Positions 2,027 to 51,943 of a DNA stretch of 58,909 bases are shown one piece after another. This DNA comes from Nitrospiraceae bacterium (GTDB taxonomy: Bacteria; Nitrospirota; Thermodesulfovibrionia; Thermodesulfovibrionales; UBA1546). The stretch is taken from assembly GCA_003599795.1 (NCBI GenBank), contig QZJQ01000007.1, positions 1 to 58,909 on the forward strand, given 5' to 3'. The notes below the pieces were generated by a model. That model had not been told where the DNA came from and did not search any database. It saw only the letters and a program-made list of their open reading frames with translations. Position numbers and translations under genes: made by a program. Every line of letters starts with the position of its first letter. Positions within the stretch are counted from its first letter, which is position 1.

Positions 2027-2029
2027 CGC

Positions 2030-4516
2030 TTAACCTGCTCTTTTCATACATGAATTAACATCAGCAACCACTTCTTTACCGCTCTGGTACCTCTTTTCAA
2101 CATCCTTGGCAAGAAGTTTATCCGCTATATAAACGCAGCAGTCAGGCACATCCGGCAATAATTCTTTTGGAGAGGCATGAGGTGTATTGGCAATATTGAA
2201 CATAAGCGTTGCAATGCTGTCTCCCTTAAAGGGCTTCTCTCCTGTGAGAAGTTCAAAAAACACGACGCCAAGCGAAAACAAATCAGAGCGGCCGTCAACT
2301 TTCTTGCCCAGTACCTGTTCAGGAGACATATAGCTGGGAGTTCCAAGAATCACGCCTGTCTGCGTTTTAGATGTTGCTATAACTCTTGCTATGCCGAAGT
2401 CCGTTATCTTAACCTCCCCGCCTTTAAGAAGCATGATGTTGGAGGGTTTTATATCCCTGTGAACAATGCCCCTGCTGTGCGCATAGTCCAGCCCGCCGGC
2501 AACGGCGGCAATTATTCTTAAGGCCTCTTTAATGAGAAGCTTGCTCCCCGAAGAAGAAACAGCGCTCAGGTCTTTGCCTTCAAGAAGTTCCATTGCAACA
2601 TAAGCAACGTCATAATCCTCGCCTGCATCATAAATCGTCACGATATTAGGGTGAGAGAGTGTGCCCGCAGCCTCTGCCTCGCGGAAGAACCTTTTCTTGG
2701 TTTCATCAAGCTGCTCGGGATCAATTTCATCAAACCTCATTGTCTTAACCGCAACAAACCTGTTTATTTTTGGATCCTTACCTAAAAATACAGTGCCCAT
2801 GGCCCCGCGTCCGAGTTCTTTCTGAATCTCATACCTGCCGAGCGTAGGCCTTGTCTCAGCGCCTTCCATCAATATTGTGGCTTCTTTCTTAGCGCCTGTT
2901 GCGCCGAATATCATTGTGTCCCCTGCAGTCTTAAGCCTTTTTATCCTCTCTTTTACATCCTTGAAATTGCCTGCCTTTAATATATGCTCATGCACGGCAA
3001 CCGCCTTGTTAAACATCCTCTTGCGCTCGAAATCAAGCCCGAGATTATAGAGCAATTCCTTCACAGCCTCGTCTTCCACAGGGCATTTCCTGAATTTCTC
3101 AAAAGCAAGGTCCAGCATCCCCTGGCCTTGAAATGAAAGGCCGAGCATCTTATTTGTCTCTATGCTGTCAGTTTCAACAAGCTCTTTTCTCCTCTCTGTA
3201 ACCATGTACCTCTTGGACATTATCACAGTGTAACCCACAAAGAGCAGCAGCACCGGAGAAAGCATCATAATCCAGTAGCCGTTTGAAATAAAAAGATATG
3301 CCGCGGCTCCGCTCCATAACAACAGGAACACCAGAGAAATAATTGCGCTTATGCCTGCCTTAAGCCTTGGTATGATGAAAGAGATGAAAATTCCGAAAAA
3401 AGCCATTGCCCCAAGCTCTGCGTATAATGCCCATTCAGGCCTTGAAATAAAATTCCCGTTCAAAAGATTCTCTATCACATTCGCCTGTATTTCAATAGCC
3501 GGAAACGTATGCGCAACCGGAGTCACCTGCAATGTTGCATGCCCTGTCGCAGTATGCCCTATTAATACAATCTTGTCTTTGAATGCTTCAGGAGCAACCT
3601 TGCTGTTTATAACATCAACGAACGAATAATAAGGAAATGTATTAAATTTGCCGTTGTAATTTACAAACATCCTCCGCTGCCTGTCAGCGAGAATGTTGAT
3701 TTTGCCAATGCTCAGGCCCTTGGAAATGTTTATATCTGACATGCCATAGTTCAGATATTTCATTACTGCATGCAAGGCAAAAGACGGGAAAATGCGTCCC
3801 TTGTAATTTATAAATAAAGGCTCTCTCCTGATGGTCCCGTCCTCATCTGCAATAAGGTTCATGTGCCCAAGCGCCAAGGAGCCTGATAAAAATTCCTGAA
3901 TCGGCGCTTCCGTTTCCGAGGCATTGATATACGAACCGTATGCCGCTTCCTTTGAATTCCTCTTGAGATGTTCTCCAAGCTGCCCGGGATCAGGACTGCT
4001 CATCTGATTGCTGATTGTAAAGGAAAGCGGCAACACAACATTCTTTGCGGCGTTTATTGAGGCTGTCAGTTTCGTATCACTGTCAAGGCGCTGTTCTGCC
4101 TCGCCGAGCAGGTTGTAAATACCTGACAAATGCGCGTTGGTCTGGTATTTAGGAAGAGACTCAACCTCTTTCTTCAGCGCCCTAATCTCAAGAAGCCCTG
4201 AATTCATATCCGGCTCTGTATAGAGAATATTAACACCGATAATCTTTGCTCCATAGCCTGAAAGCAGCCCTATCATCTCGGCTATATATACACGGGGCCA
4301 GGGCCAGCGCCCGATGCCTGCAATGCTGACATCGTCTATCGTCACTATGACAACAGGGCTTGACGCCTTGCGCTGCTTGAGCTCTATCATTGAGTCGTAG
4401 GCCTTATATTCAAGCAGGCGCAGAGGATACCACTCAAAAAAATAGCCGCCCGAAATAAGCAGGGTGAGCAAAATGCCGATGAGCCAGTCAGGGAATATGG
4501 TCTTTTTTTGTTTCAT
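2030..4516 (-). CDS. Membrane Ser/Thr protein kinase with CHASE2 sensor
   Basis: A protein of about 828 residues. Order: one N-terminal transmembrane helix (WLIGILLTLLISGG), a large extracytoplasmic CHASE2 domain (residues about 35-370), a cluster of transmembrane helices (about 370-440), a linker of about 100 residues with helical repeat character (LGLSFQGQGMLDLAFEKF), then a Hanks-type kinase domain from about residue 560. The kinase has the glycine loop ELGRGAMGTVF, AVKTM lysine, HRDIKPSN catalytic loop, DFGIA, and GTPSYMSPEQ. It probably senses an outside signal and phosphorylates cytoplasmic targets such as the downstream FHA protein. The start is uncertain: a TTG at 4561 would add 15 residues; I prefer the ATG at 4516. 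Neither has a strong ribosome binding site. Confidence 0.9.
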   Translation of the reverse strand: MKQKKTIFPDWLIGILLTLLISGGYFFEWYPLRLLEYKAYDSMIELKQRKASSPVVIVTIDDVSIAGIGRWPWPRVYIAEMIGLLSGYGAKIIGVNILYTEPDMNSGLLEIRALKKEVESLPKYQTNAHLSGIYNLLGEAEQRLDSDTKLTASINAAKNVVLPLSFTISNQMSSPDPGQLGEHLKRNSKEAAYGSYINASETEAPIQEFLSGSLALGHMNLIADEDGTIRREPLFINYKGRIFPSFALHAVMKYLNYGMSDINISKGLSIGKINILADRQRRMFVNYNGKFNTFPYYSFVDVINSKVAPEAFKDKIVLIGHTATGHATLQVTPVAHTFPAIEIQANVIENLLNGNFISRPEWALYAELGAMAFFGIFISFIIPRLKAGISAIISLVFLLLWSGAAAYLFISNGYWIMMLSPVLLLFVGYTVIMSKRYMVTERRKELVETDSIETNKMLGLSFQGQGMLDLAFEKFRKCPVEDEAVKELLYNLGLDFERKRMFNKAVAVHEHILKAGNFKDVKERIKRLKTAGDTMIFGATGAKKEATILMEGAETRPTLGRYEIQKELGRGAMGTVFLGKDPKINRFVAVKTMRFDEIDPEQLDETKKRFFREAEAAGTLSHPNIVTIYDAGEDYDVAYVAMELLEGKDLSAVSSSGSKLLIKEALRIIAAVAGGLDYAHSRGIVHRDIKPSNIMLLKGGEVKITDFGIARVIATSKTQTGVILGTPSYMSPEQVLGKKVDGRSDLFSLGVVFFELLTGEKPFKGDSIATLMFNIANTPHASPKELLPDVPDCCVYIADKLLAKDVEKRYQSGKEVVADVNSCMKRAG

Positions 4517-4576
4517 AATTGTAGCTATGTAAATAGTATCAATTCCCTGATTCAATTGCAATACAGAATTATTTCT

Positions 4577-5827
4577 TTAACCCATTATTCCCTTGAAGTC
4601 ATTTTCGCTGACAGGCCCGAGCGCCGTAAGCGCAGTTGCGCTTTTGCTTAACAGCTTCTCCGCAAGCCCTTTAACCTGTGCGAGGCTTATGGAATTTATA
4701 TCTTTTATTATCTCCGAAGGCGAGTAATACCTGCCGTAATATATCTCCTGCCGGGCAATGTTCTGCATCCTGCTGCTCGTTGATTCAAGGCCGAGGATAA
4801 GATTGCCCTTAAGCTGAGCCTTGGCCCTTTCTACATCAACATCCGTAAGCATATCTGCCAGGCCCCTCATCTCTTTGAGGACAAGCTCTGTCACCTGAGA
4901 TACTTTCTTTTTTCCCGTCCCGGCGTAAACAGCCAATACCCCAGTATCGGCATAGGATGATATATACGAATAAACAGAATATACCAGCCCTCTTTTCTCC
5001 CTTATCTCCTGAAAAAGCCGTGAGCTTACGCCTCCGCCGAGAATTGTATTCAGAATGAACAATACGTACCTGTCTTTGCTTGCCTGAGGCATACCTTCAA
5101 CGCCGAGACACAGATGAACCTCGGAGAGTTCTTTGCCGTAAACTCTTATTTTACTGCCAAACTCCGGGCGGTCCGGAACGGTTTCAGGCTCTAACCCCTT
5201 TCTGAGAGAACTGAAATTATGATTCAGCGCATCAAGAAGCCTTTCTGTTTCAAAATTTCCAGCGCAGGCTATAACAATACCCTTTGTCCCGTAATGTTTT
5301 TTCGTGTGGCTGACAAGGTCTTCCCTTATAAATGACTTAATCGTCTCTCTTCTGCCGAGTATGGGCTGTCCTATGCCTTCACTGCCCCATATTGTCTGGT
5401 TGAAGAGGTCGTATATGTAGTCGTCAGGCGTATCCTCAACCATCTTTATCTCTTCTTTGATAATCCCCTTTTCTTTTTCTATATCTTCCTCAGGGAATGT
5501 GGAGTGAATGAATATATCAGACAGAAGCTCTATGCCTTTATCAAAATATTCATCAAGGACTTTGATATAAAACGTTGTGCTTTCCCGCGAGGTAAACGCA
5601 TTCAGGTCGCCTCCCATAGAGTCCGTGTCAACGGCGATGTCTTTTGCGGAGCGTTTCTGCGTACCTTTAAAAAACATGTGCTCAAGAAAATGCGATATGC
5701 CGTTCTTCTCAGGCGGCTCGTTCCGGGAACCGACCTTGACCCATACGCCGAGGGCCACAGAACGCACATCCTTTACCTGTTCCATAACTACCGGCATGCC
5801 GTTTTCAAGATAGGTTTTTTTGAACAT
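4577..5827 (-). CDS. M16-family zinc peptidase (YmxG/MlpA-like)
   Basis: A 416-residue insulinase-family peptidase. The inverted zinc motif HFLEH is present, followed by the distal glutamate in the IKEEIKMVED region. The C-terminal M16 half contains the conserved GGGVSSRLFQEIREKRGL segment. The length fits single-subunit processing peptidases encoded next to pnp in many bacteria, for example Bacillus, where the order is rpsO-pnp-...-mlpA. Here the order rpsO-pnp-M16 is also kept, although a 180-bp inverted repeat separates pnp from it. Likely cytoplasmic; substrate unknown. The kinase gene begins shortly downstream. Confidence 0.92.
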   Translation of the reverse strand: MFKKTYLENGMPVVMEQVKDVRSVALGVWVKVGSRNEPPEKNGISHFLEHMFFKGTQKRSAKDIAVDTDSMGGDLNAFTSRESTTFYIKVLDEYFDKGIELLSDIFIHSTFPEEDIEKEKGIIKEEIKMVEDTPDDYIYDLFNQTIWGSEGIGQPILGRRETIKSFIREDLVSHTKKHYGTKGIVIACAGNFETERLLDALNHNFSSLRKGLEPETVPDRPEFGSKIRVYGKELSEVHLCLGVEGMPQASKDRYVLFILNTILGGGVSSRLFQEIREKRGLVYSVYSYISSYADTGVLAVYAGTGKKKVSQVTELVLKEMRGLADMLTDVDVERAKAQLKGNLILGLESTSSRMQNIARQEIYYGRYYSPSEIIKDINSISLAQVKGLAEKLLSKSATALTALGPVSENDFKGIMG

Positions 5828-5842
5828 GGTTGTGTACCTTTA

Positions 5843-6023
5843 TGCTGCTGCCGAACGTCTTTGAGCGGCATTGATATTTTTCGTTAACAGTTCTTGGCGA
5901 AATGAAGCGGCCACAGCCTCGACTGTCTGAGTTCCGAAAGTTTTCGGAACGAGTTTCGAGGATGTAGCGGAATAAGACTTAGAACTGTAGAAAAATATCA
6001 CAGAGAGCGAAAGACAGCACTGC
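5843..6023. repeat. Large imperfect inverted repeat (MITE-like or structured RNA)
   Basis: The two halves of this gap between pnp and the M16 gene are imperfect reverse complements along about 180 bp. Matching pairs from outside in: GTCTTT (about 5856) with AAAGAC (6010-6015); TGATATTTTTC (5872-5882) with GAAAAATATCA (5989-6000 area); ACAGTTCT (5887-5894) with AGAACTGT (5981-5988); CCTCGA with TCGAGG (5956-5961); and GTTCCGAAA with TTTCGGAAC at the centre. As RNA it would form one long bulged stem in the pnp-M16 message. No open frame crosses it. It could be a miniature transposable element or an RNase-processed spacer. A separate AT-rich palindrome (TTACAAAA-TT-TTTTGTAA) lies at 6031-6048, just after the pnp stop. 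Confidence 0.7.
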
Positions 6024-6059
6024 TTATCTATTACAAAATTTTTTGTAAACTTTGCAGCT

Positions 6060-8183
6060 TTAGTTTTTTGCGGCCTCTTTCTCCCGCATAGCCTCTTTCC
6101 TGCTTAGACGAATTTTGCCTGTCCGGTCCATCTCAATTACCTTAACAAGGACTTCTTCTCCCTCATTAAGCACATCCGTAACCTTTGCTATTCTCTTTTC
6201 ATCTATCTGGGATATATGAAGAAGGCCTTCGGTGCCAGGCATTATCTCTACAAACGCTCCAAAATCAACAATACGCTTCACCTTCCCAAGATAAATTCTG
6301 CCGACCTCTGCCTCGGCAATAATGCCGTTGATTATCTCTATTGCCTTCTGAGCCGCCATTTCATCAGCTGATGCAATATTTATCAATCCTGAATCATCAA
6401 TATCAATTTTAGCTCCGGTCTGCTCTATTATCCCTCTTATCACCTTTCCGCCCGTTCCGATGACATCCCGTATTTTTTCCTTTTTTATCTGCATGGTATA
6501 TATGCGAGGGGCGTGCTTTGCAATCTCTGTCCGCGGTTCGGCAATGGCTTCCTTCATCTTGGAAAGTATGTGGAGCCTGCCGCTTTTTGCCTGCTCAAGC
6601 GCTGTCTCCATTACTGAACGGCTTACGCCGCTTATTTTGCAGTCCATCTGGAAAGCGGTAATGCCCTTTTCAGAACCGGCAACCTTGAAATCCATGTCGC
6701 CAAGGTGGTCTTCCAGCCCGAGGATATCGGTAAGAACTACGGTTTTATCTCCTTCCTTGATAAGCCCCATTGCTATGCCTGCCACAGGCGAGGAAAGAGG
6801 CACTCCTGCATCCATCATGGACAGGGTTGCTCCGCATACTGTCGCCATGGAAGAGGAGCCGTTTGATTCAAGGATGTCTGAAACAATTCTTATGGTATAC
6901 GGAAACACTTCCTTTGAAGGGATTACATATTTTAATGCGCGCTCTGCAAGAGCCCCGTGCCCTATCTCTCTTCTGCCCGGTGAGCGGAGCGGCTTTACCT
7001 CTCCGACGCTGAACGGCGGAAAATTATAATGAAGCATGAAACTCTTATACATCTCTCCGTCAAGAGAGTCAATCTTCTGCTCGTCATCTGCTGTGCCGAG
7101 TGTCGTCACAGCAAGCGCCTGAGTCTCGCCTCGGATAAAGAGCGCCGAGCCGTGCACACGCGGAAGGAAACCAAGATTACAGGATATCTGCCTTATTTCG
7201 CTGGTTTTTCTGCCGTCAGACCTCACTCCCTTGCTGAGGATCATGTTCCTGACAATTTCTTTCTCGTAAGAATCGAAGGCATTTGCAATGTCTCTCGTTA
7301 AATCTTTGCCTGCATCTCCCGAAAGCCTCTCTGAGTTTTCAGGAGTGTTGAACTGCTTGATGGCATCTCCAAGAATTATGTCAAGGGCTTCCTGCCGCTG
7401 ATGTTTCCCCTGAATAGTGATTGCTTCATTAAGCCTTTCTGCAACAAAGGCTCTCACTTCTTTTTCAAGCGCAAGATTTTTTTCAACCGGACTGACCGGC
7501 CTTTTTGCTTTTCCTGCCTTGTCTCTGAGTTCGTTTTGCAGCGCCACAATGCGCTTAATCTCCGCATGGGCAAAATCAATGGCTTCGAGGAGCGATGATT
7601 CCGATACCTCTGCCCCCCCTCCTTCAACCATGATTATGGCATCTGCCGTTCCGGCCACAACGAGGTTAAGATCAAGCTTTTCAGTTTCGGCACTGTCCGG
7701 ATTGATTACCAATGCGCCGTTAATCATTCCCACTCTAACTGCCGCTACCGGCCCTTCAAAAGGAACATCGGATATATGCATGGCAGCAGACATTCCGATT
7801 ATGCCTAAAATGTCCGCAACATTTTCACTGCCGTATGACAGAACTGATGCGATTCCCTGAGTCTCATGATAAAATCCTTTCGGAAATAACGGCCTTAACG
7901 GGCGGTCTATGAGGCGTGATGTAAGAACTTCCTTTTCGCTCGGCCTGCCTTCCCGCTTAAAAAACCCGCCGGGGATTTTGCCTGCGGCATAGGTTCTTTC
8001 CTGATATTCAATCGTGAGGGGGAAAAAATCAAGTCCTTCCTTCTTTTTCTTGTCCGCAACTGCAGTTGCCAGTACTACGGTGTCTCCGAATCTTACTACA
8101 ACAGACCCGCCTGCCTGACGGGCCATTACGCCTGTTTCAATTATCAGCTTCTTTCCTCTAATCTCAATTTCAACTTTAGTCAT
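6060..8183 (-). CDS. pnp: Polyribonucleotide nucleotidyltransferase (PNPase)
   Basis: A 707-residue phosphorolytic 3'-to-5' exoribonuclease, the expected length. Domains: first RNase PH-like domain (about 1-220), an all-helical linker, the second, catalytic RNase PH domain (about 310-540, with FPPFSVGE and RREIGHGALAERAL), a KH domain (GTGGKVIRGIIEQTG, about 550-615) and an S1 domain (about 620-690, GKVKRIVDFGAFVE). It forms a trimeric ring that degrades mRNA and takes part in the degradosome. rpsO lies 14 bp upstream, the classic rpsO-pnp operon. The conserved order and motifs make this secure. Confidence 0.98.
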   Translation of the reverse strand: MTKVEIEIRGKKLIIETGVMARQAGGSVVVRFGDTVVLATAVADKKKKEGLDFFPLTIEYQERTYAAGKIPGGFFKREGRPSEKEVLTSRLIDRPLRPLFPKGFYHETQGIASVLSYGSENVADILGIIGMSAAMHISDVPFEGPVAAVRVGMINGALVINPDSAETEKLDLNLVVAGTADAIIMVEGGGAEVSESSLLEAIDFAHAEIKRIVALQNELRDKAGKAKRPVSPVEKNLALEKEVRAFVAERLNEAITIQGKHQRQEALDIILGDAIKQFNTPENSERLSGDAGKDLTRDIANAFDSYEKEIVRNMILSKGVRSDGRKTSEIRQISCNLGFLPRVHGSALFIRGETQALAVTTLGTADDEQKIDSLDGEMYKSFMLHYNFPPFSVGEVKPLRSPGRREIGHGALAERALKYVIPSKEVFPYTIRIVSDILESNGSSSMATVCGATLSMMDAGVPLSSPVAGIAMGLIKEGDKTVVLTDILGLEDHLGDMDFKVAGSEKGITAFQMDCKISGVSRSVMETALEQAKSGRLHILSKMKEAIAEPRTEIAKHAPRIYTMQIKKEKIRDVIGTGGKVIRGIIEQTGAKIDIDDSGLINIASADEMAAQKAIEIINGIIAEAEVGRIYLGKVKRIVDFGAFVEIMPGTEGLLHISQIDEKRIAKVTDVLNEGEEVLVKVIEMDRTGKIRLSRKEAMREKEAAKN

Positions 8184-9965: not shown

Positions 9966-10897
9966 AAACATCCGGAATTCTTGCTGTTTACTGTTTACTG
10001 TTTACTGTTTGCCTCATGTTTGTTTCCTGCGGCAAAAAAACACCGCCTACACTCAAGGCGTATGAAAAACCGCTTGCTCCGGCAGCTCTTAAGGCAATAC
10101 ATAGAGAGGACAGGATTATCCTCTCATGGGCCTACTCTTCAAAAAAAGAAAATTTAAAAGAATTTCATATTCTCAGGGCAGAGGACAGCAGTTTTAAGAA
10201 AATAGGAGTTGTAAGCAAGGATGCATCTGCTTATACGGATATTAATTTTAAGACCGGCACCCCCTACAAATATAAAGTGGTTGCAGAAAGCCTGAAAAAA
10301 GTCCTCAGCGACGATTCAACTGTAATTGAAATAAAGCCTGCGGTTGTGCCTCCTGCTCCAAAGAATATATCCTTCAAGGCCGGCAATGACAGCCTGAACG
10401 TTTCATGGGACAGCTCAGGCGAAAATGTGCTTTATAACGTTTACAGAACCGCTGAGAAAGGAAAATACGGCATCAACCCCGTAAATAAAGAGCCCCTGAC
10501 AATGCCAAAATATTCCGACACGCTGGAAGCAAGCGCTCCTGTTTATTATGCAATCCGCAGTCTTTTGAATAAAGAATTCCGAAGTGAGGGACCGGCGTCA
10601 GCGGAAATAACAGTGGACCCTTCAACCTTTATCCCTTCAAAGCCCGAAGGATTTCAGACAGTTGTCGCAGACGACAGAGTCGTTATTTCATGGAAAGAAA
10701 ATCCTGAGATGTGGGTGACAAAATACAGGGTTTATGATAAGGTGAATGAAAAAGACGGATTTAAGCTTATAAAAGAATCCGTGACTCCTGCGTTTACTTT
10801 AAGGGAGAAAACAGGGACAAAGCATACTTTAAGGGTAACTGCAGTCGGTCCGTTAAAAGAAAGCGAACCTTCAGAGACAGTTACATTTGATTTTTAG
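9962..10897 (+). CDS. Lipoprotein with fibronectin type III-like repeats
   Basis: A 311-residue protein with a lipoprotein signal ending at Cys (FVSC followed by GKKTPP). The mature part holds about three beta-sandwich modules of roughly 90 residues each, beginning near [30 protein letters not shown] and [14 protein letters not shown], each with the Trp and Tyr spacing of FnIII domains. Likely anchored in the outer or inner membrane and exposed to the periplasm or surface. The hydrophobic core of the signal peptide (VYCLLFTVC) is encoded by a 7-bp tandem repeat. The gene overlaps argH by 4 bp, a link to arginine synthesis that is probably only positional. Confidence 0.8.
9985..10012. repeat. 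7-bp tandem array inside a signal-peptide region
   Basis: Three copies of TGTTTAC followed by TGTTTGC, in the coding sequence of the lipoprotein signal peptide. One member of the short-period array family seen across the window. Confidence 0.85.
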
Positions 10898-15482: not shown

Positions 15483-15510
15483 AATCCTGAATCTTGAATC
15501 CTGCATCGTG
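15483..15510. repeat. 7-bp tandem array, four units
   Basis: AATCCTG, AATCTTG, AATCCTG, CATCGTG in perfect 7-bp register, between the dehydrogenase and the citrate-synthase-like gene. Same unit family as the arrays in murD (30013) and between murE and murF (34422). Confidence 0.9.
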
Positions 15511-15514
15511 AGAT

Positions 15515-21221: not shown

Positions 21222-21245
21222 GAATTCCTCCTTTTTATAATTAAT

Positions 21246-21328
21246 AGTTAGAAGTTAAAAGTTGAAAGTTGAAAATTAAAAATTCTAAAGAATTTAACTC
21301 TTAACTCATAACTCTCAACTCTTAACTT
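21246..21328. repeat. Self-inverting AGTTRAA / AACTYTT array between ftsA and ftsZ
   Basis: Left half repeats AGTTAGA, AGTTAAA, AGTTGAA, AGTTGAA. After a short centre (about 21283-21290) the right half repeats TTAACTC, TTAACTC, ATAACTC, TCAACTC, TTAACTT in the opposite sense. The halves are near reverse complements, giving a long imperfect hairpin in the ftsA-ftsZ message. It fills almost the whole 115-bp spacer. Confidence 0.85.
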
Positions 21329-24406: not shown

Positions 24407-24410
24407 AGCA

Positions 24411-24480
24411 ACCTCTCAACAGGGTTCAAGCAATTCAACCTTTCACCCGAACCCTTGAATCCTCTAACCCTCAAACCCTT
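24411..24480. repeat. Degenerate array between murB and ddl
   Basis: Units such as AACCTCTC, AACCTTTCACCC, AACCCTTGAATCC, AACCCTC, AAACCC, with an inverted GGGTTC (24422-24427) and GAACCC. It fills the 75-bp spacer; no gene. Confidence 0.65.
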
Positions 24481-24481
24481 T

Positions 24482-25432
24482 TTATTCATCTCTCCCCACA
24501 ATCCTTATCTCCGTCTCAAGCTCTGTGCCGAAAACCTTCATTACCTTTTTTTTCACCTCATCCATAAGCTTCAAAAAATCTGACGCCTTCGCTTGGCCTT
24601 TATTGATAAAAAAATTTGCATGCACTCTGCTCACTTCAGCATCTCCAACCCGCATCCCCTTGCAGCCTGCTTCATCTATCAGCCTTCCTGCGGATGCGCC
24701 TCCGGGATTCTTAAATACGCAGCCCGCAGACATCTCTGACAGAGGCTGTGTCTCGCGTTTCTGCTTAAGAAAAGAATCTATCTTTTTTTCAACATCCTCC
24801 TTCACTTCCTTTCTCAGCCTCATGTTTGCGCTCAGGATAACAGCTCCTTCAGGCAGCATTGACGCCCTGTATTCAAGCCCGAGTTCAGAGACGCTCATCT
24901 CGTAAATCCCCTTATCAGAGTGCATTAATCTTACAGAGACAAGCGCATTCTTTATTGAATAGCCGAAGGCCCCTGCATTCCCCGCAATTGCGCCTCCGAC
25001 AGAGCCCGGTATGCCTACCAGGCCTTCAATGCCGGAGTATCCGTTTTCTCTTGAAAAACTCACAAGTTTTTGAAGCGGAGTTCCCGACTCGGCAAAAAAC
25101 AGGACCATATCCTTCTCTTCCTTTGCAATGTCATTGCGCCTGAAATTCTTCAATGAAATAACCACTCCGTATATCCCGCCGTCTTTCACAAGGATATTAG
25201 TGCCTCCGCCAACTGTCACAAAAGGTATGCGTTCTTCATTCAGCACGGTAAGAATGTTTTCCAGAGACACCGTGTCCTGCGGGCATGTGAAGACGTCTGC
25301 CTCGCCGCCTATCTGGAGATATGTATGCGCCTTCATGGGCTCCTTGAACTTCACCTCGCCATGAACTTCCAGGGAAGAAACCATCTTCTGCCACAGACGC
25401 TCATCCACTACAGTTTGCTTTTTAGTTGCCAT
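24482..25432 (-). CDS. murB: UDP-N-acetylenolpyruvoylglucosamine reductase
   Basis: A 316-residue FAD enzyme that reduces enolpyruvyl-UDP-GlcNAc to UDP-MurNAc. Visible: TYLQIGGEADVF, VTVGGGTNILVKDGG (FAD site), GIPGSVGGAIAGNAGAFG, YRASMLPEG and SAGCVFKNPGGASAGRLID (catalytic Ser region). Type II length. Overlaps the murC end by 11 bp. Confidence 0.97.
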   Translation of the reverse strand: MATKKQTVVDERLWQKMVSSLEVHGEVKFKEPMKAHTYLQIGGEADVFTCPQDTVSLENILTVLNEERIPFVTVGGGTNILVKDGGIYGVVISLKNFRRNDIAKEEKDMVLFFAESGTPLQKLVSFSRENGYSGIEGLVGIPGSVGGAIAGNAGAFGYSIKNALVSVRLMHSDKGIYEMSVSELGLEYRASMLPEGAVILSANMRLRKEVKEDVEKKIDSFLKQKRETQPLSEMSAGCVFKNPGGASAGRLIDEAGCKGMRVGDAEVSRVHANFFINKGQAKASDFLKLMDEVKKKVMKVFGTELETEIRIVGRDE

Positions 25433-26831: not shown

Positions 26832-26846
26832 TTTCGCTCCAGCTAA

Positions 26847-26924
26847 ATTTAAAATTTAAAAGTAAAAATTCAAAGATGATGAAGTCATTAATTTTGAATT
26901 TTTCATTTTGCATTTTTATCTTTC
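26847..26924. repeat. Self-inverting AT-rich array between murC and murG
   Basis: AAATTTAAA, AATTTAAAAG, AAAAATTCAAAG on the left and TTTTGAATTTTT, CATTTTGC, ATTTTTATC on the right are approximate reverse complements around 26880. Same TTTTGAAT unit as in the dacA start region. Confidence 0.7.
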
Positions 26925-28012: not shown

Positions 28013-28035
28013 ACAACATCCTCTGCAACAAAGTA

Positions 28036-28181
28036 GGGTTCGAGGGTTCGCGGGTTCGAGAGAAAATCCAAGAGTCCGAGCGTCAAAGTGTCAGCGTCTT
28101 CTACACTTTGATACTCTGATACTTTGATACTGTTTTTCTTTGATTCCTTGACCCCTTGACCCCTTGACCCCTTTTGACCCT
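28036..28181. repeat. Three adjacent 8-bp arrays between murG and ftsW
   Basis: First, GGGTTCGA, GGGTTCGC, GGGTTCGA (28036-28060). Second, a self-inverting array (GCGTCAAAGTGTCAGCGTC then ACTTTGATACTCTGATAC, 28079-28131). Third, CTTGACCC three times and a variant (28145-28181). Together they fill the 168-bp spacer. An open frame happens to cross them on the minus strand, but it looks like a repeat artefact. Confidence 0.9.
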
Positions 28182-29351: not shown

Positions 29352-30812
29352 TCAGTACAAATCCCTCACAATCTTTTTAAACTGCTCTCCCCTGTCTTTG
29401 TAATCCTTGAACATATCAAAACTCGCGCACGCGGGAGAGAGAAGCACAACATCGCCTTTTGACGCCGCTTTTCCGGAAATCATTACTGCTTCTCTCAGGC
29501 TGTCCGCAAAAACAGTCTCTGTCAGCCCGCCGAGAACTTCCTTTATCTTTTCTCTTGCCTCTCCGATGAGAACAAGTTTTTTTACCCTGCTTTTTACGAG
29601 AGGGCTCAGGAGAGAAAAATCTCCGTCCTTGTCCCTTCCGCCGGCAATTAAAATGACCGGTACTGAGAAACTCTCAAGCGACTTCACAACCGCATCCACA
29701 TTCGTGCCTTTTGAGTCATTGATGTAATCAACTCCCTCAAATTCCCTGACAAGTTCAAGGCGGTGTTCCAGCCCTTCAAACTCTTTTAAGACTTTCACTA
29801 CTGCCTCTGACGGACATCCTGCAAGGAGAGCCATGGCCGAAGCAGCCATGGCATTCTCCAGGTTGTGAACCCCTTTAATTTTTATTTCATCAGCGCGCAG
29901 AAGTTGAGAGTTAAGGGTTAAAAGCGAAGAATTGAAGTTAGAATAAATAACTCCGTCCTTGGAATAAATTCCGTTTACTTCTTTTTTACGGCTGAAGAAA
30001 TATACGTCAGGTAATCTTGAATCTTGAATCTTGAATCTTGAATCGTATAATCTCATTGTTTCCCTGTCATCCGCATTAAGGACAAGGTAATCTCCTTCCC
30101 CATGATTTGCGAATATCCGCGCCTTAGCATCCTTGTAATTCTCCATTGAATGATATCTGTCCATATGGTCAGGCGTGATATTGAGTATAGCTGCGCCTGC
30201 AGGCCTGAATGTCTCTATTGCCTCAAGCTGAAAACTTGACACCTCAGCGACGATGAAATCAACTTTTAATTTTTCACTTTTAACTTTCAACTTGTTAAGT
30301 TCCTCTGTGAGCGCATTCCCTATATTCCCTCCCATGACTGTCCTGAAACCGCCTTTATTCAGCATCTCATTTAACAGCGTTGTAGTGGTTGATTTTCCGT
30401 TTGTGCCTGTTATTGCCAGAAAGGGAATTGGGGATTGGGGATTAGGGATTGGAGTTGTTTCTTTTGCCAACCCCTGACCCCTAACCCCTAATCCCTGAGT
30501 TGCCTGATACGCAAGTTCAAGTTCACCGATAATTCTTATCCCCATCTCCCTTGCCTTCTTTAACGGAGCAATGTCCGACGGCACGCCCGGACTCAGCACT
30601 ATCATATCCACACCCTGCAGGATGCCGTCAGGATGCCCGCCGAGACTAAGCCTTATTGTAGGCAAAAGCCTCTCAACATATTTCATTAGCGCTTCTTTCG
30701 GCTTGCTGTCAGTAACCGTTACCTTTGCTCCAAAATGCGCAAGCAGATTTGAAGCGCCGGCTCCGCTCTCCGCAAGGCCGAAAACAAGTATATTCTTATT
30801 CTTTAGTTCCAT
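29352..30812 (-). CDS. murD: UDP-N-acetylmuramoylalanine--D-glutamate ligase with four repeat-encoded inserts
   Basis: A 486-residue Mur ligase adding D-Glu. Motifs: VFGLAESGAGASNLL, TGTNGKSTTTTLLNEML (ATP loop), EVSSFQLE, ITPDHMDRY, NDSKGTNVDAV and LSPACASFDMF. Compared with the usual 440-450 residues it carries extra low-complexity stretches, each coinciding with a tandem array: LGVRGQGLAKETTPIPNPQ before the ATP loop, KLKVKSEKLKVD, YDSRFKIQDSRLP and NFNSSLLTLNSQLL. All catalytic motifs remain, so it is probably functional. I chose the ATG at 30812 (MELKNKN), overlapping the dacA end by 17 bp; an upstream in-frame start would only add dacA-overlapping residues. Confidence 0.95.
   Translation of the reverse strand: MELKNKNILVFGLAESGAGASNLLAHFGAKVTVTDSKPKEALMKYVERLLPTIRLSLGGHPDGILQGVDMIVLSPGVPSDIAPLKKAREMGIRIIGELELAYQATQGLGVRGQGLAKETTPIPNPQSPIPFLAITGTNGKSTTTTLLNEMLNKGGFRTVMGGNIGNALTEELNKLKVKSEKLKVDFIVAEVSSFQLEAIETFRPAGAAILNITPDHMDRYHSMENYKDAKARIFANHGEGDYLVLNADDRETMRLYDSRFKIQDSRLPDVYFFSRKKEVNGIYSKDGVIYSNFNSSLLTLNSQLLRADEIKIKGVHNLENAMAASAMALLAGCPSEAVVKVLKEFEGLEHRLELVREFEGVDYINDSKGTNVDAVVKSLESFSVPVILIAGGRDKDGDFSLLSPLVKSRVKKLVLIGEAREKIKEVLGGLTETVFADSLREAVMISGKAASKGDVVLLSPACASFDMFKDYKDRGEQFKKIVRDLY
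29898..29942. repeat. Array D in murD (AGTTGAG/GGTTAAA units)
   Basis: AAGTTGAG, AGTTAAG, GGTTAAA, then AATTGAAG. Encodes NFNSSLLTLNSQLL in MurD. Confidence 0.75.
30013..30045. repeat. Array C in murD: AATCTTG x4
   Basis: Four perfect copies of AATCTTG plus a partial fifth. Read in the murD frame this 7-bp unit gives a heptapeptide-like pattern (DSRFKIQDSR). Confidence 0.95.
30261..30299. repeat. Array B in murD (AACTTTT/TCACTTTT units)
   Basis: AACTTTTAAT, TTTTCACTTTT, AACTTTC, AACTTG. Encodes KLKVKSEKLKVD. Confidence 0.8.
30424..30500. repeat. Array A in murD: self-inverting GGGGATT / AATCCCC array
   Basis: On the plus strand GGGGATT units (30430-30453) are followed by CCCCTGA, CCCCTAA, CCCCTAAT, CCCTGAG (30472-30500). 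On the minus (coding) strand the latter give four G-runs with 3-4-nt loops, a G-quadruplex pattern. Encodes the glycine- and proline-rich segment before the ATP loop. Confidence 0.85.
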
Positions 30813-31929
30813 ACGCCACGTTTCTAATAATCCCTTTATTTTTTGTTTTTTTACCTTCCTCCGCAGGAACAGCATCTTCTTCTTTATCAGGCCTTGCCCT
30901 GTTAGTCTTCTTCTTTGATAAAACCCTGTCTGATTTTGTTTTATTATTTTTTGAATATGCCTTTAACTTTAAATTTTTATTTTTTGACTTTGTCGCCTCG
31001 GCAGTTCGCCCGCGGCGAGAACTTTTCTGATAATCCGCTTTTGTGAAATAAACAACAGGCTGTTCATTGCTTGCAATAACAGCAAAGCCTTTTGTTTCTA
31101 ACCGCTCCGCCTCATTCCACAAAGTCTCTCTGCTCTGCGCTCCCAGAATAGCAACTATCACCATTCCGCCTTCTTTTTCGCCGGCATACACAAAACAATG
31201 CCTCGCCGCTTTCGTATATCCCGTCTTTCCACCGACTGCGCCATTGTCAGACCACAGAAGCCTGTTAGTGTTCTCAAGGGCTATGGTCCTGCCCTGTTCC
31301 GTAGATATCTCAGCCTCTTTTTTGCCTAAAATCTCTCGTATCACAGGATATTTAAGCGCATGCCTCATTATCTTAGAGAGGTCATAAGCTGTTGTATGCT
31401 GGCCTTTCCCCGGAAGTCCTGTAGTATTTATAAACCTTGTATTATATGCCCCTATTGCAACAGCCTTTTTATTCATTAGCTGCACAAATTTCTTCTCCGA
31501 GCCCGCAACAACCTCTGCAAGGGCAAAAGCAGCGTCATTTGCCGACCTTATAAGAGCTGCATAAAGCAGGGTTTCCACAGTCAGGGTTTCTCCTGCCTTC
31601 AGCTTTGTCTCTTTAAGCGAGGGGACCTTTGCCGCCGCCTCGCTGATTGTCACTGTATCGCTCATGTCAGCCCTGTCAAGGACGACCATGGCTGTCACAA
31701 GTTTAGTTGTGCTTGCAGGAGGCAGTCTTAGGTTTGGATTTTTCGCAAACAACACCCTGCCTGTTGAAGCCTCCATGACAACCGCAGCCTTTGAGGAAAT
31801 TTCATCAGCAGATGCCGCAACGGCCAAAAATGCAAAATTTAAAATTAAAAATGCAAAAATAAAGAAGATTTTAAAATTTTGAATTGTAATTTTGAATTTT
31901 GATTTTTGAATTTTGAATTCCATTTTCAC
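30796..31929 (-). CDS. dacA: D-alanyl-D-alanine carboxypeptidase (PBP5/6 family) within the dcw cluster
   Basis: A 377-residue exported penicillin-binding protein. Serine motifs in order: ASTTKL (SxxK, about residue 68), SAND (SxN) and GGKTGYT (KTG). It trims the terminal D-Ala of peptidoglycan pentapeptides. The signal peptide ([20 protein letters not shown]) is encoded by a self-inverting AT-rich array. The C-terminal tail after about residue 300 is lysine-rich ([16 protein letters not shown]) and replaces the usual PBP5 C-terminal domain and amphipathic anchor. The GTG start overlaps the mraY stop by 4 bp. The position between mraY and murD is unusual. Confidence 0.93.
31003..31023. repeat. 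Palindrome in the dacA tail codons
   Basis: AGTTCGCC-CGC-GGCGAGAACT, near-perfect (two extra bases in the right arm). Encodes SSRRGRT in the lysine-rich tail, in a different register from the uvrA and ftsA copies. Confidence 0.75.
31826..31920. repeat. Self-inverting TTTTGAAT array encoding the DacA signal peptide
   Basis: ATGCAAAATTT, AAAATTAAAA, ATGCAAAAAT on the left; TTTTGAATTG, TTTTGAATTTTG, TTTTTGAATTTTGAATT on the right, with the turn near 31870. The whole stretch is open in the dacA frame. Confidence 0.85.
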
Positions 31930-34368: not shown

Positions 34369-34389
34369 AACCTCTCTAAAAAATCTGAT

Positions 34390-34449
34390 GCATGATTCAT
34401 GATTCATGATTCATGTTTTTTATCCTGCATCCTGTATCTTGTATCCTCT
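34390..34449. repeat. Two 7-bp arrays at the murE end
   Basis: GCATGAT, TCATGAT, TCATGAT, TCATG (34390-34415), then ATCCTGC, ATCCTGT, ATCTTGT, ATCCTCT (34422-34449). The arrays encode the last residues of MurE (DTRYRMQDKKHES) and its stop. Confidence 0.92.
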
Positions 34450-35936
34450 TTAAGTTTCTCCTTTATAGCTTTCTCTGCTGTCCCCCTGTCGCTGAATTTA
34501 TGCCTTGCGCCCTTTATCTCCTGATAATCCTCGTGCCCCTTGCCTGCAATAAGCAGTATGTCGCCCTTTTCTGCGGTCTCCACTGCCTTCTGAATAGCCT
34601 TCTCCCTGTCAGGTTCAATTGTATAATTCATCCTCACTGCGCCCTTCTCTATCTCTTTTATTATCTCCATCGGTTCTTCGCTGCGGGGGTTATCAGAGGT
34701 TATCACTATATAATCGCTCAGTTTTGTTGCTATCGCTGCCATTTGCGGCCTCTTTCCCCTGTCCCTGTTGCCGCCGCAGCCAAAAACAGTAATGATTTTC
34801 CCCTGACCCTCTATAAGTTCTCTGGCAGCGCATATCAGCCTTTCAAGCGCATCTTCTGTGTGAGCATAGTCAACTATACAGAGAAAATTCTGCCCGAGGT
34901 CAACCTTTTCAAATCTTCCCTTTACAGAAACCATCTTCTTTATTCCGCTTATTACCGCTTCCCACGGCACATTCAGGCTAACAGCAGCGCCGACAGCAGA
35001 GAGTATGTTATAAACATTGTGCGTGCCTACAAGCGGAGACTGAATATTGTAGGTCCTGCCGTTGAAATTAATATCAAACACAAGCCCGTCAAATGAGTTT
35101 TTAATATTCGCCGCAGCAATATCCGCTCCTGCTTCAATGCCGTATGTAATCAAATTTCCAACTTTTGAATTCCTCAATTCAGATATCAATTCTCTTCCGT
35201 AAATATCGTCAAAATTTATTACAGACGTCCCGTCTTTCAAAAGAAGCTCTTTAAACAGCCTTTCCTTTGCCCTGAAATAGTCTTCCATTGTTATATGAAA
35301 ATCCAGATGGTCTCTTGTAAGATTTGTGAAAACTGCAATGCTGAACCCCGTATAGTCCACCCGCTTCTGCGCAAGAGCATGGGATGACACTTCTGTCACA
35401 ACATGAGTGCACCCTGCTGAAACCATTTCGTTCAATACAGCCTGAAACTCAAGCGCCTCAGGCGTGGTATGAGGGGCGTCATAATGCCTGTCCTTCACAA
35501 GATAATTGATGGTGCCTATAAGCCCCACATTTTCCCCCCATGCCTCAAGGACTGACTTTATAAGATATGTTGCCGTTGTCTTTCCGTTGGTTCCGGTTAT
35601 ACCTATAACAGTCAACTTGTCAGACGGCCTTTCGTAAAAATTATTGGATAGGCACGCAAGAGCCTTCCTGCTGTCAGCGACTTTGATGAATACGGGAATC
35701 GGTGAATCGGTTGCTGTTTTTTCCTCTTCATAAACCACCGCGACTGCGCCTTTCTTAACTGCCTCGCTGATAAAATCATGGCCGTCAACACGCTCGCCTT
35801 TTGCGGCAACAAAGACATAGCCTTGCCTGACCTTCCTCGAGTCATAGGCGATCCCCGCCACCTCAACATCATCCGCCGCTGGCGGACTGGTCATCTCTTT
35901 TATCTCCATATCCTTTATAAGCATCTTTAAGTTCAT
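34404..35936 (-). CDS. murE: UDP-MurNAc-L-Ala-D-Glu:meso-diaminopimelate ligase
   Basis: A 510-residue Mur ligase. The DNPRSEEP motif marks meso-diaminopimelate rather than lysine specificity. Others: [36 protein letters not shown] and AGKGHEDYQEI. Two repeat intrusions are visible: a GC palindrome near residue 17 (SPPAADD) and a C-terminal tail from a 7-bp array. Core motifs are intact. Confidence 0.97.
   Translation of the reverse strand: MNLKMLIKDMEIKEMTSPPAADDVEVAGIAYDSRKVRQGYVFVAAKGERVDGHDFISEAVKKGAVAVVYEEEKTATDSPIPVFIKVADSRKALACLSNNFYERPSDKLTVIGITGTNGKTTATYLIKSVLEAWGENVGLIGTINYLVKDRHYDAPHTTPEALEFQAVLNEMVSAGCTHVVTEVSSHALAQKRVDYTGFSIAVFTNLTRDHLDFHITMEDYFRAKERLFKELLLKDGTSVINFDDIYGRELISELRNSKVGNLITYGIEAGADIAAANIKNSFDGLVFDINFNGRTYNIQSPLVGTHNVYNILSAVGAAVSLNVPWEAVISGIKKMVSVKGRFEKVDLGQNFLCIVDYAHTEDALERLICAARELIEGQGKIITVFGCGGNRDRGKRPQMAAIATKLSDYIVITSDNPRSEEPMEIIKEIEKGAVRMNYTIEPDREKAIQKAVETAEKGDILLIAGKGHEDYQEIKGARHKFSDRGTAEKAIKEKLKEDTRYRMQDKKHES
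35872..35886. repeat. Palindrome in the murE N-terminal codons
   Basis: TCCGCC-GCT-GGCGGA. In the murE frame it gives part of SPPAADD, a different register from the uvrA and ftsA copies. Confidence 0.85.
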
Positions 35937-35948
35937 CTATTTTAAAAA

Positions 35949-36005
35949 AGTATCAAAGGGTCAAAGGGTCAGAGAGTCAAAGTCTCTGATACTCTGACAC
36001 TCAGT
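35949..36005. repeat. Self-inverting GTCAAAGG array between ftsI and murE
   Basis: GTATCAAAG, GGTCAAAG, GGTCAGAG, AGTCAAAG followed by TCTCTGATAC, TCTGACAC in the opposite sense. Same unit family as the arrays at 28079 and 50899. Fills the 76-bp gap. Confidence 0.9.
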
Positions 36006-48308: not shown

Positions 48309-50873
48309 ATGCAAACCTCTATAGTCATAAAAGGCGCGCGGGAGCACAATCTCAAGAACATCAGCGTATCCATACCCAGAGAAAAGATAACTGTTATCAC
48401 CGGCCCCTCGGGCTCCGGCAAATCATCCCTTGCAATTGACACAATCTACGCCGAGGGACAGAGGCGGTATGTTGAAAGCCTTTCAGTATATGCAAGGCAG
48501 TTCCTTGAACAGCTTCAGAAACCCGACGTGGACCTTATTGAGGGGCTTTCCCCTTCCATTGCAATTGAGCAGAAAACAGTTACGAAAAGCCCGCGTTCAA
48601 CACTCGGCACAATAACCGAAATCTATGACTATATGCGTGTGCTTTACACGCGGATTGGAAAACCTTACTGCTATAACTGCGGTTCGCTTATAGCCGCGCA
48701 GGAGGCTCAGAACATAATAGATTCCGTTGTGTCACTCCCTCAGGGAACACGCATACAAATACTTGCGCCTATTGTCAGAGACAGAAAAGGTGAATATAAA
48801 AAAGAGCTTTACGATATGCTGCGCGACGGGTTTATAAGGGCGAGGATAGACGGCGTGATGTTTGACCTCACACAGGATATAAAGCTGAAGAAACAGCAGA
48901 GGCATACCATCGAGATTGTTATAGACAGGCTTCTTATAAAAACAGGGACTGAAAGGCAGATAAAGAGCGCGATTGATTCAGCATTAAAATATACGGACAC
49001 CGTTATAATTAATCTCATAGACAAAAACAAGGACATCCCTTTCAGCAGGACCATGGCATGTCCCAACTGCAGCATAAGCTACCCTGAGATTAATCCGAGA
49101 TTTTTTTCCTTCAACAGCAAATACGGAGCCTGCCCGAGATGCCACGGCATCGGGTTTGAAAACATCGGCGAGGATTTTGAGGCCGAAAAACAGGACTTCG
49201 GAGCTATAACCGATGAGGAAGTGGCCGGGTTATCAGCGTGCAAGGCGTGCAAAGGCATGAGACTGAGAAAAGAGGCGCTGAGCATAAAAATAAACGACAC
49301 AAACATAGCTGAATTTTCAAGAATGTCTGTCATCAACGCAATTCAATTTATCAATGCGCTTAAGCTTACGGACCGGGAACAGACAATAGCTTCGCGCGTG
49401 CTGAGAGAAGTCAAAGACAGGCTTTCGTTTCTCAATAAGGTCGGCCTCGGTTATCTGACAGTTGACAGGCTTTCGCTTACGCTTTCAGGCGGTGAAGCGC
49501 AGAGGATACGACTTGCAACGCAGATGGGCTCGTCCCTCACAGGAGTGCTTTATGTCCTTGACGAGCCAAGCATCGGGCTTCATCCAAGAGACTGCAAAAA
49601 ACTGCTTGAAAGCCTTTCGTCAATAAGAGACTCAGGAAATACAGTGATAATAGTTGAACATGATGAAGATACCATAAACTGGGCTGACCATGTCATTGAC
49701 ATGGGGCCGGGCGGAGGGCTTAGAGGCGGATGGATAACCGCAGAAGGCCCGCCTTCTGTTATCAGGGATAACAAAAACTCATTGACAGGCAGATACCTCA
49801 AAGGCGAACTGAGCATACCAGTGCCTGCAAAGAGGAGAAAATCAAAAGACTTCATCCATATCAACGGCGCGTCAGAATTTAATCTTAAGGATATAGATGT
49901 CAAGATGCCGCTGGGCCTGTTTACATGCATAACAGGTGTTTCAGGTTCGGGCAAGAGCACGCTGATATTTGAAACTCTATACAAAGCTATCGCCGGAAAA
50001 CTATATAAAAGCGCGCTCATCCCGGGAAAGCACAGGGAAATTACAGGCATGGAAAAAATTGACCGCATAATATGCGTGGACCAGTCTCCGTTGGGACGCA
50101 CGCCCAGGTCTAATCCCGCGACTTACACCGGGATATTCACATACATCAGGGAACTCTTTGCGCAGATTCAGGATTCAAAGATACGGGGATATACTGCATC
50201 GCGCTTCAGTTTTAATGTCGCATCCGCCTCAGGCGGAGGAAGATGCGAGTCCTGCCATGGCGGAGGCACGCTTAAGGTTGCCATGCATTTCCTTCCTGAT
50301 GTTTACATCCCATGCAATGTATGCAAAGGCAAAAGATACAATAAAGAGACGCTTGAAATAAGATATAAAGACAAAAACATAGCTGAGGTCCTTGCGATGA
50401 CGGTTTCAGAGATGCTCCGGTTCTTCAGCGCAATTCCGCTTATACGCCAGAGGCTTGAAATACTTGAAGACGTGGGGCTCGGATACATTCAGCTTGGCCA
50501 GTCCGCGACAACTCTCTCAGGCGGTGAAGCTCAAAGGGTAAGGCTTTCAAGAGAATTCGGGAAAAGGTCCTCCGCCTCAGGCGGAGGAAACACTCTTTAT
50601 CTGCTTGACGAGCCTACGACAGGACTGCACTTTGCCGACATTCAGAAACTCCTTGATGTCATAAACAGCCTCATAGACCTCGGAAACACGGTGGTTGTGA
50701 TAGAGCATAATCTTGACGTGATAAAGTCATCTGACTATATAATTGACCTTGGGCCTGAGGGCGGAGAAAAAGGCGGAAGGGTCATAGCCGCAGGAACACC
50801 TGAAGAAGTGAGCTCAAATCCTGATTCGTATACGGGGATGGCTTTGAAAAATAAATTAGCGGTGAATAGATAA
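48309..50873 (+). CDS. uvrA: Excinuclease ABC subunit UvrA, insertion domain absent
   Basis: An 854-residue tandem ABC ATPase; usual length is about 940. Present: Walker [12 protein letters not shown] and [12 protein letters not shown], UvrB-binding domain ([12 protein letters not shown] ... RARIDG), zinc modules CPNC/CPRC/CKAC and CESC/CNVC, ABC signatures TLSGGEAQR twice, and Walker [12 protein letters not shown] and [11 protein letters not shown]. Between CPRCHGIG and [10 protein letters not shown] only about 30 residues occur, whereas a lesion-contacting insertion domain of around 100 normally sits there. Two 15-bp palindromes add SASGG before CESC and before the last Walker B. Likely still acts with UvrB in nucleotide excision repair. 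Confidence 0.95.
50223..50237. repeat. Palindrome copy 1 in uvrA
   Basis: TCCGCC-TCA-GGCGGA, in frame, encoding SASGG just before the second zinc module, where other UvrA proteins have a single residue. Confidence 0.92.
50569..50587. repeat. Palindrome copy 2 in uvrA
   Basis: CCTCCGCC-TCA-GGCGGAGG, 8-3-8 perfect. Encodes SSASGGG between KRS and NTLYLLDEP, a five-residue gain over the family pattern. Confidence 0.93.
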
Positions 50874-50881
50874 ATGGGTGA

Positions 50882-51943
50882 ATGGGCATGAGAAAAAAGT
50901 ATCAAAGTGTCAAAGCGTCAAAGCGTCAAAGCAGCTTCTGCTCTGCTGTTCTGCTGCTCTTCTGCTCTCTACTCATTCTGTCTGCCTGTTCTCCTGCTCA
51001 GGAAACACTCTATAAAAAAACCCGCACTTCTATGTACACCATTGTCTCGATTACTATTTCTTCTGACTCCGAAGAAAAAGCAGAAAAAGCAATTGAGATG
51101 GCATTTAACGAGTTGGACAGGCTCGCAAAGCTTTTAAACTTTTATTCCGAAGACAGCGAAGTATCCGCGATTAACAGAAACGCGGGCAACAGGCCTGTAA
51201 ATGTATCTCAGGAGACATTGGAGATAATAGATAAGGCATTGTACGTGTCGGAAAATACAGAAGGCGGATTTGACATTACAGTCGGGCCATTGGTGCGTTT
51301 GTGGGATTTTCAGAAAAAAATAATTCCTGACGGAGCAACAGTCAAAGAAAAATTAAAATTAGTGGGGTATAAAAATATCATTATAGACAAAAAAGCGTCA
51401 ACGGTCTTTCTTAAAACAAAAGGAATACAGGTAGACCTCGGCGGCATCATAAAGGGTTATGCTGCCGATAAGGCAGTCGGAGTTCTTAAGCAACAGGGCA
51501 TAAGGGCTGGCATAGTCGCGGTTGCAGGAGATATTAAAACCTTCGGTATAAGGCCCGATGGCGGTTTATGGAAGGTGGGGATTCAAAACCCAAGGCAGCA
51601 AACAGATAAAGATGAAATTATGGCAACCGTGGGCCTCTCGGATACAGCTATATCGACATCCGGGGATTACCAGAAATTTTTTATAAAAGACGGCAGAATA
51701 TATCATCACCTTTTAAACCCTAAAACAGGTTATCCTGATAACGAATGCCGCAGCGTAACCATAATAGCAAAGGACGCCGCATTTGCAGACGCCTTTGCGA
51801 CAGGCATATTTATTTTAGGGACGCAGAAAGGCATGGACACTCTGAACCGGCTGGGACTTGATGGAATTATAGTGGACAAAGATGGCAAAATACATGTAAC
51901 ACAAAATCTGCGGAGCAAGGTTGAGTTTAAAAAAGATAAGTAG
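50882..51943 (+). CDS. apbE: FAD:protein FMN transferase, lipoprotein form
   Basis: A 353-residue ApbE protein that attaches FMN covalently to Thr in flavoproteins such as NqrC/RnfG using FAD and Mg. Motifs: GGFDITVGPLVRLW, DLGGIIKGYAADKA, VAGDIKTFGIRPDG and STSGDYQKFF with HHLLNPKTGYP. Signal peptide ends LLILSAC, a lipobox. Its N-terminal codons are made of two tandem arrays. A Gx-type transporter gene follows 8 bp later, a common pairing. Confidence 0.95.
   Translation: MGMRKKYQSVKASKRQSSFCSAVLLLFCSLLILSACSPAQETLYKKTRTSMYTIVSITISSDSEEKAEKAIEMAFNELDRLAKLLNFYSEDSEVSAINRNAGNRPVNVSQETLEIIDKALYVSENTEGGFDITVGPLVRLWDFQKKIIPDGATVKEKLKLVGYKNIIIDKKASTVFLKTKGIQVDLGGIIKGYAADKAVGVLKQQGIRAGIVAVAGDIKTFGIRPDGGLWKVGIQNPRQQTDKDEIMATVGLSDTAISTSGDYQKFFIKDGRIYHHLLNPKTGYPDNECRSVTIIAKDAAFADAFATGIFILGTQKGMDTLNRLGLDGIIVDKDGKIHVTQNLRSKVEFKKDK
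50899..50985. repeat. Two tandem arrays encoding the ApbE signal peptide
   Basis: GTATCAAA, GTGTCAAA, GCGTCAAA, GCGTCAAA (50899-50930, 8-bp register) followed by TCTGCT/CTGTTCTGCTGCTCT-type units to about 50985. The first gives the basic n-region (QSVKASKRQS), the second the hydrophobic core (FCSAVLLLFCSLL). Confidence 0.9.

Follow-up and report, generated by a model that had tools for sequence, protein, structure and literature searches.

Purine-first repeat hairpins with 7- and 8-bp units that differ at the same sites among related Nitrospirota genomes

Heptameric repeats are known in several bacterial lineages, and the literature that we found leaves their origin and function open. The question is raised again by a stretch of 58,909 nucleotides, hereafter the window, which is contig C3 of a 1.40-Mb Nitrospirota (Thermodesulfovibrionia) metagenome assembly, 75% complete, and in which short tandem arrays keep a steady step while their units vary: by what process could such repeats be written? 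The window carries on its minus strand a division and cell-wall cluster (ftsI-like, murE, murF, mraY, dacB-like, murD, ftsW, murG, murC and murB), and the closest named relatives of its MraY are from Nitrospirota metagenome-assembled genomes, several of them from groundwater and Thermodesulfovibrionales among them.

In the window, a strict scan (18-bp comparison, at most two mismatches) detected seven period-7 and six period-8 arrays but no array with a period of 3-6 or 9-12, whereas 60 local dinucleotide-preserving shuffles of the window gave a mean of 0.0 arrays. Genome-wide counts, which cover 1.08 of the 1.40 Mb of the window genome, comprised 93 period-7 and 32 period-8 arrays (octads being about a quarter of the arrays), a total of two for periods 3-6 and of six for periods 9-13, besides peaks at 14, 16 and 21 that are harmonics of period 7 or 8. 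Therefore, of the family of 7-9-bp arrays put forward in the original prediction, periods 7 and 8 stand and period 9 does not, in the strict scans of both the window and the 1.08 Mb. The predicted positions were recovered by TRF: GGGTTCGA at 28035, CTTTGATA at 28105, CTTGACCC at 28146, AATCTTG at 30013, AATCCTG at 15483, TATCCTG at 34421, TCAAAGSG at both 35953 and 50902, TGTTTAC at 9984, TTAAAAG at 21241, AATTTTG at 31875 and ATTCATG at 34386, while the GTCAAAGT/GTCAGCGT stretch at 28079 consists of two units pairing with the 28105 array. Shuffled sequence is thus practically free of such arrays, which occur genome-wide and in relatives. An assembly artefact is ruled out, because independent assemblies show the same sites, in frame.

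The usual form of these elements is a purine-rich array followed by a loop and a pyrimidine-rich array resembling its reverse complement, that is, a convergent pair. A convergent partner was found within 120 bp for 52 of the 125 arrays, compared with 7 in the direct-repeat control. The purine arm precedes the pyrimidine arm in 48 cases against 4 in the window genome and in 38 against 3 in its congeners (each pair being countable from both arms), and likewise in 12 against 0 in the rest of the family and 16 against 0 in Xanthomonas and Luteimonas sequences fetched solely as mraY relatives (pairs again being countable from both arms). Arrays matched their own reverse complement in the expected flank, with a score of at least 13, in 43% of cases versus 14% for arrays of other sites, and therefore the arms go together site by site. 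Since units vary by site and the architecture is common to all, simple slippage of one motif does not explain the arrays, as had been predicted. Units also recur at distant sites, far above the null: identical heptad-unit pairs numbered 136 among 93 arrays (10 expected from letter-shuffled units) and identical octad-unit pairs among sites numbered 37 (0.4 expected). Members of the octad family have unrelated loops and outer flanks, and their two arms consistently differ (GGGTTCGA vs GGGTCAAG) at several sites. The GATNCAN/ATCNTGN family has 52 members in the examined sequences, with 7 nt, equal to one unit, as the commonest loop length; often the members have a 7-nt loop that is rich in A or T. 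Most consensus units are devoid of GGG, GGGGATT/AACCCCT being a minority.

Other features were observed alongside these families. In GATNCAN/ATCNTGN members one position of the unit repeatedly shows, on the sense strand, a mismatch of purine with purine between the two arms, and the orientation of these members is biased 28:1 in genes and 18:3 in co-directional gaps, a bias for which stop avoidance alone is insufficient. The densest group seen in the genome is in L141 (G000:C33), where some 7 kb at positions 1250-8040 contain about eight repeat hairpins. A GC-rich palindrome with the core CTCGGCGACTCGCCTGAGG lies within or adjoins heptad arrays in G001 at window site 30013, in L141 at 7804-7860, in L122 near 6690 and in G003 at window site 35687; searching by core motifs gave 14 loci in the 1.08 Mb, and 4 of these have a strict array no more than 100 bp away (2.6% at random). 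A CCCCCCTTTACTAAAGGGGGG-like palindrome is present in G002 and G007 at window sites 30261 and 35687, where some congeners have heptad hairpins.

Comparison of the sites with those of the congeners G001-G003 and G005-G007 (FtsW 91-94% identical, array flanks 82-92% identical) revealed different repeats at the same place. The ftsW/murG gap of the window holds a nested octad hairpin at 28035..28175 (TRF, strict scan, congeners), with outer arms GGGTTCGA (28035-28060) and CTTGACCC (28140-28175) and inner arms GTCAAAGT (about 28079-28098) and CTTTGATA (28105-28131); the same gap has GATNCAN heptads in G001, the AATTTTG type in G002 and G003, and the AAGTGAA type in G005 and G007. The convergent pair AAAAATT/AATTTTG at 31826..31919, which encodes the signal-peptide region of a DacB-like D,D-peptidase, has counterparts with other units in G001, G003, G005, G007, L010 and L012, so that one pair of flanks encloses several unit types across the congeners. 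The heptad array (TGTTTAC)n at 9980..10013 (TRF, strict scan), at the junction of two co-directional ORFs, corresponds in G001 to a longer segment with another unit, ACAGGAT, and the convergent pair AGTTAAA/AACTCTT in a co-directional gap at 21241..21327 (TRF, congener comparison) corresponds to other units in G002 and G003 and to a short remnant in G001. In addition, an AATCCTG array was recovered by TRF between two ORFs at 15483..15511, and the octad arrays GGTGAATG, GTCAAAGC and CTGCTCTG, which are convergent, lie at an ORF start at 50861..50999 (TRF, strict scan, congeners).

Empty sites were found in some congeners at 24450, 26845, 34386 and 35953. An insert of about 80 bp with the degenerate octad array AACCCTCA, identified by congener comparison at the murB/ddl-like junction (24407..24486), is missing from G001, G002, G003 and G007; likewise, the convergent heptad pair in the murC/murG gap (26845..26917, congener comparison) has no equivalent pair in G001, G002 and G003 and faces a GATNCAN-type hairpin in G007. 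The murE/murF junction, with the convergent pair GATTCAT/ATCCTGN at 34385..34447 (TRF, congeners), is empty in G001, G003 and G005, and the convergent octad pair TCAAAGGG/CTCTGACA in the ftsI/murE gap (35953..36002; TRF, strict scan) is missing from G001 and G002. Target-site duplication, judged by eye at empty and filled sites, is suggestive at 34386 only and is not established.

The 33 comparisons between the window genome and G001, covering 0.46 Mb of G001 sequence and classified by reading, gave about 10 sites with the same family and about 15 with different families, while the remainder were empty or reduced. Heptad and octad hairpins stand opposite each other in the two genomes at C8:11129, C27:13657 and C33:7749; these sites and window site 28035 are examples of a change of unit, sometimes along with the period, at one place. 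The orthologous arrays at C33:1251 and C33:2392 differ by unit drift and copy number, and the AATCTTG array in murD has the same unit and the same copy number in three genomes, indicating that rewriting is not constant. The window and G002 share both the arrays and the flanks at 31826 and 34386, and the array forms that arise are probably passed on among congeners by allelic exchange. Because the architecture is common, units recur, and unit or period changes at one site, a shared generating process behind the arrays is likely, in agreement with the original prediction; different units at identical spots, even inside essential genes, point to an unexplained copying process that rewrites them.

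With respect to gene context, we examined 267 arrays in 1.82 Mb of sequence from the family of the window genome, taking long ORFs, rather than curated annotation, as genes. The arrays had been described as filling gene gaps, which does not apply to most of them: 127 (48%) are gene-interior, compared with 70% of random intervals, 68 (25%) are at gene ends, and 56 (21%) are in co-directional gaps, compared with 8.7% of random intervals. Gaps between convergent genes are not enriched (3 of 267, 1.1% vs 1.8% of random intervals).

Within murD there are three arrays, AATCTTG at 30011..30047, AACTTTT at 30261..30298 and the convergent pair (GGGGATT)n/(AACCCCT)n at 30423..30496. For all three, the solved MurD structure 3lk7 has a shorter segment or none at the corresponding place: the first encodes a loop missing from 3lk7, the second a loop, and the third the linker between the N-terminal and central domains (residues ~128-151). 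Different repeat families have common boundaries inside the murD loops. A short octad array, TGAATCGG, lies inside murE at 35687..35711. Length differences are divisible by 3 in 32 of 33 comparisons of coding sites, compared with 14 of 30 for gap sites, and the frame is held in murD, murE and dacB in the genomes compared, for murD in all seven. In this the arrays differ from phase-variable contingency repeats, whose copy number switches the reading frame of a gene. Coding-interior arrays are stop-free in 104 of 127 cases on the sense strand and in 40 of 127 on the antisense strand, while the corresponding numbers for gap arrays are 25 and 18 of 56. Given their in-frame lengths and sense-strand stop avoidance, coding arrays are thus passengers that are translated and whose readability is maintained by selection, and essential enzymes such as MurD take up variable repeat-coded loops in frame, which is a source of new protein segments.

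The trait is patchily distributed. Family f1 is rich in arrays, with 3-16 heptad arrays per ~20 kb or less (G009, with none, is the exception), as are G025 and G037, whereas most other families of the order have few or none. The genomes counted as array-rich are G000-G008, G010-G015, G025 and G037, with G009 and G055 among the array-poor ones. The recombinase or polymerase that the original prediction suggested looking for did not emerge from searches in 61 genomes of the order. No PF01797 match (Y1/RAYT) was found in G001, an array-rich congener rated 100% complete, or in G003, also array-rich; no PF00078 match (reverse transcriptase) was found in G000, G001, G002, G003, G005 or G007; and Ku, Y-family polymerase and SbcD were undetected in G001, which does possess MutS1. 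None of these six (Y1/RAYT, reverse transcriptase, SbcD, Ku, Y-family polymerase and MutS1) tracks the arrays across the 61 genomes. Since G001 is array-rich, the enzymes undetected in it are therefore not needed to keep arrays, though they could have acted in the past. SbcD is undetected in almost all array-rich genomes, yet also in most array-poor ones. Only six of the 61 genomes pass the SbcD cut-off, and their stretches have no or few arrays. Most genomes of the array-rich family, and G025 as well, lack the MutS2-like second MutS match that nearly all others have, with exceptions both ways (G012 and G037; G009 and G022); the array-rich genomes without MutS2 are one clade.

We postulate, giving it somewhat less than an even chance, that these are DNA-level repeat hairpins rewritten by templated slippage or template switching and tolerated where insertions do little harm. 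Slipped and template-switched synthesis in the course of replication or repair would write the arms: a nascent strand may re-pair 7-8 nt off register, either with the opposite arm of the hairpin or with an array at another location, and then be extended. Templated rewriting of this kind would keep the arms matched and spread unit families among sites; it would also change unit and period at occupied sites, and sites could shrink to nothing. The elements would persist only where insertion is tolerated, in gaps of operons or in signal peptides and surface loops, with the reading frame kept and stop codons mostly avoided. The architecture, polarity, arm matching, unit and period switching, empty sites, frame constraint and lack of an RNA-hairpin signature were observed, and to these we add by inference the templating itself and its timing. 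Against templating, the GGGTTCGA and GGGTCAAG arms of the octad family stay different, which inter-arm copying should erase. Templated rewriting also leaves the 7-8-bp step length and the purine-first polarity unaccounted for, slippage by itself not predicting such a polarity.

It is conceivable, if unlikely, that the arrays are non-autonomous mobile hairpin cassettes, two-armed elements moved by a hypothetical transposase, in which switching would be loss followed by re-insertion at preferred targets. Presence or absence with empty sites fits cassettes, as do the dispersed families, of which GATNCAN/ATCNTGN, with 52 members and often a 7-nt loop rich in A or T, is an example, but the unrelated loops and outer flanks of the octad family, the common boundaries of different families within conserved murD loops, and the failure to detect Y1/RAYT or reverse transcriptase in the complete congener G001 argue against them. 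Ordinary polymerase slippage acting independently at each site, the standing proposal for the bacterial heptamer excess, is less probable still and is already weakened; it agrees with the confinement of the period to 7-8 and with the drift at C33:1251 and C33:2392, but gives neither inverted partners with fixed polarity, nor unit recurrence at unrelated sites, nor a simultaneous change of period in both arms, and frequent single-unit slips would break the murD frame, which is intact in all seven genomes.

Polarity is where a fourth reading has its strength. If a break received purine-rich repeats at its two 3' ends, in the manner of telomerase, and was then joined, the scar would be purine-first on both strands, as are fused telomeres, and this is the sole rival that predicts such polarity; however, reverse transcriptase and Ku were undetected in G001 and congeners carry different units within identical boundaries, and we regard break healing as very doubtful. 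We would assign the same low likelihood to selected regulatory or RNA elements acting as terminators, G-quadruplex switches or translational regulators, a reading for which the enrichment in co-directional gaps speaks, as does the finding that, in Xanthomonas, related heptads rich in G are transcribed and fold into quadruplexes in vitro (PMC4692102). RNA hairpins predict more G·U than A·C mismatches on the transcribed strand, but in gaps there were 43 G·U versus 36 A·C (p = 0.50), no excess, and therefore selection for an RNA hairpin is not visible; R·R (44) and Y·Y (42) mismatches were equal there. We reject RNA function in gaps on this count, and terminators on the lack of enrichment between convergent genes. 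In gene interiors there is a strong skew in the opposite direction (10 G·U versus 76 A·C), which fits stop-free reading. Moreover, half of the arrays are inside genes, most units have no G-tract, and Rfam gave no match in the window.

Among known systems, REP sequences are short hairpins that occur in large numbers in the gene gaps of a genome, have a conserved sequence and are associated with a Y1 (RAYT) transposase; unlike them, the elements described here are variable in sequence, and Y1 was undetected in G001. They also differ from diversity-generating and other reverse transcriptase-based elements, as the six genomes named above gave no PF00078 match. With the bacterial heptameric long simple repeats they share the 7-bp excess and the enrichment in non-coding sequence, but period 8 is abundant and 48% of the arrays are inside genes. 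The TAACTGA heptads of Beggiatoaceae form many short intergenic arrays and are patchy among phyla (PMC4679880); they have one unit, almost no inverted pairs and a position just upstream of start codons, which is not the case here. Several heptads in one genome are known also for the STRR heptamers of cyanobacteria, with three units in Calothrix PCC7601 (cited in PMC4692102), and in the part of that literature available to us no description of polarity, octads or unit switching was found.

Two other systems offer close parallels. The G-rich heptads of Xanthomonas and Nostoc are mostly located between aligned genes, at positions that are kept while length varies between species (Rehm 2015, PMC4692102), and Xcc has 70 convergent inverted heptad pairs (PMC4692102). 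Convergent inverted pairs are found here too, as is GGGGATT, at 30423 in the window, but there are many unit families, most of them without G-tracts, about a quarter of the arrays are octads, half are coding, unit and period switch at fixed sites, and the elements as a class do not show the four consecutive G-tracts per array that characterize the Xanthomonas and Nostoc quadruplexes. In the P6b stem of the cyanobacterial tRNA-Leu (UAA) intron, the heptad class, TDNGATT or NNTGAGT, has been repeatedly swapped in place (PMC4476775), and replacement of the heptad class at a fixed site with both arms matching is likewise seen here; unlike that single RNA stem of a group I intron, however, the present elements comprise well over 100 arrays in protein genes and gaps, with no G·U signature and, in the window, no Rfam match. 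Our literature search returned no report of such arrays in Nitrospirota, and the literature has the parts (convergent pairs, class replacement, heptads), not the whole combination. Tentatively, and with the odds rather against it, we suggest one class of element in Nitrospirota, Xanthomonadaceae and probably cyanobacteria: purine-first hairpins with a 7- or 8-nt step, whose unit words would pass between sites and arms without a dedicated transposase or reverse transcriptase. With their fixed polarity, arm matching, unit and period switching, and a complete congener without the usual enzymes, the arrays described here make the question of heptameric repeats testable.
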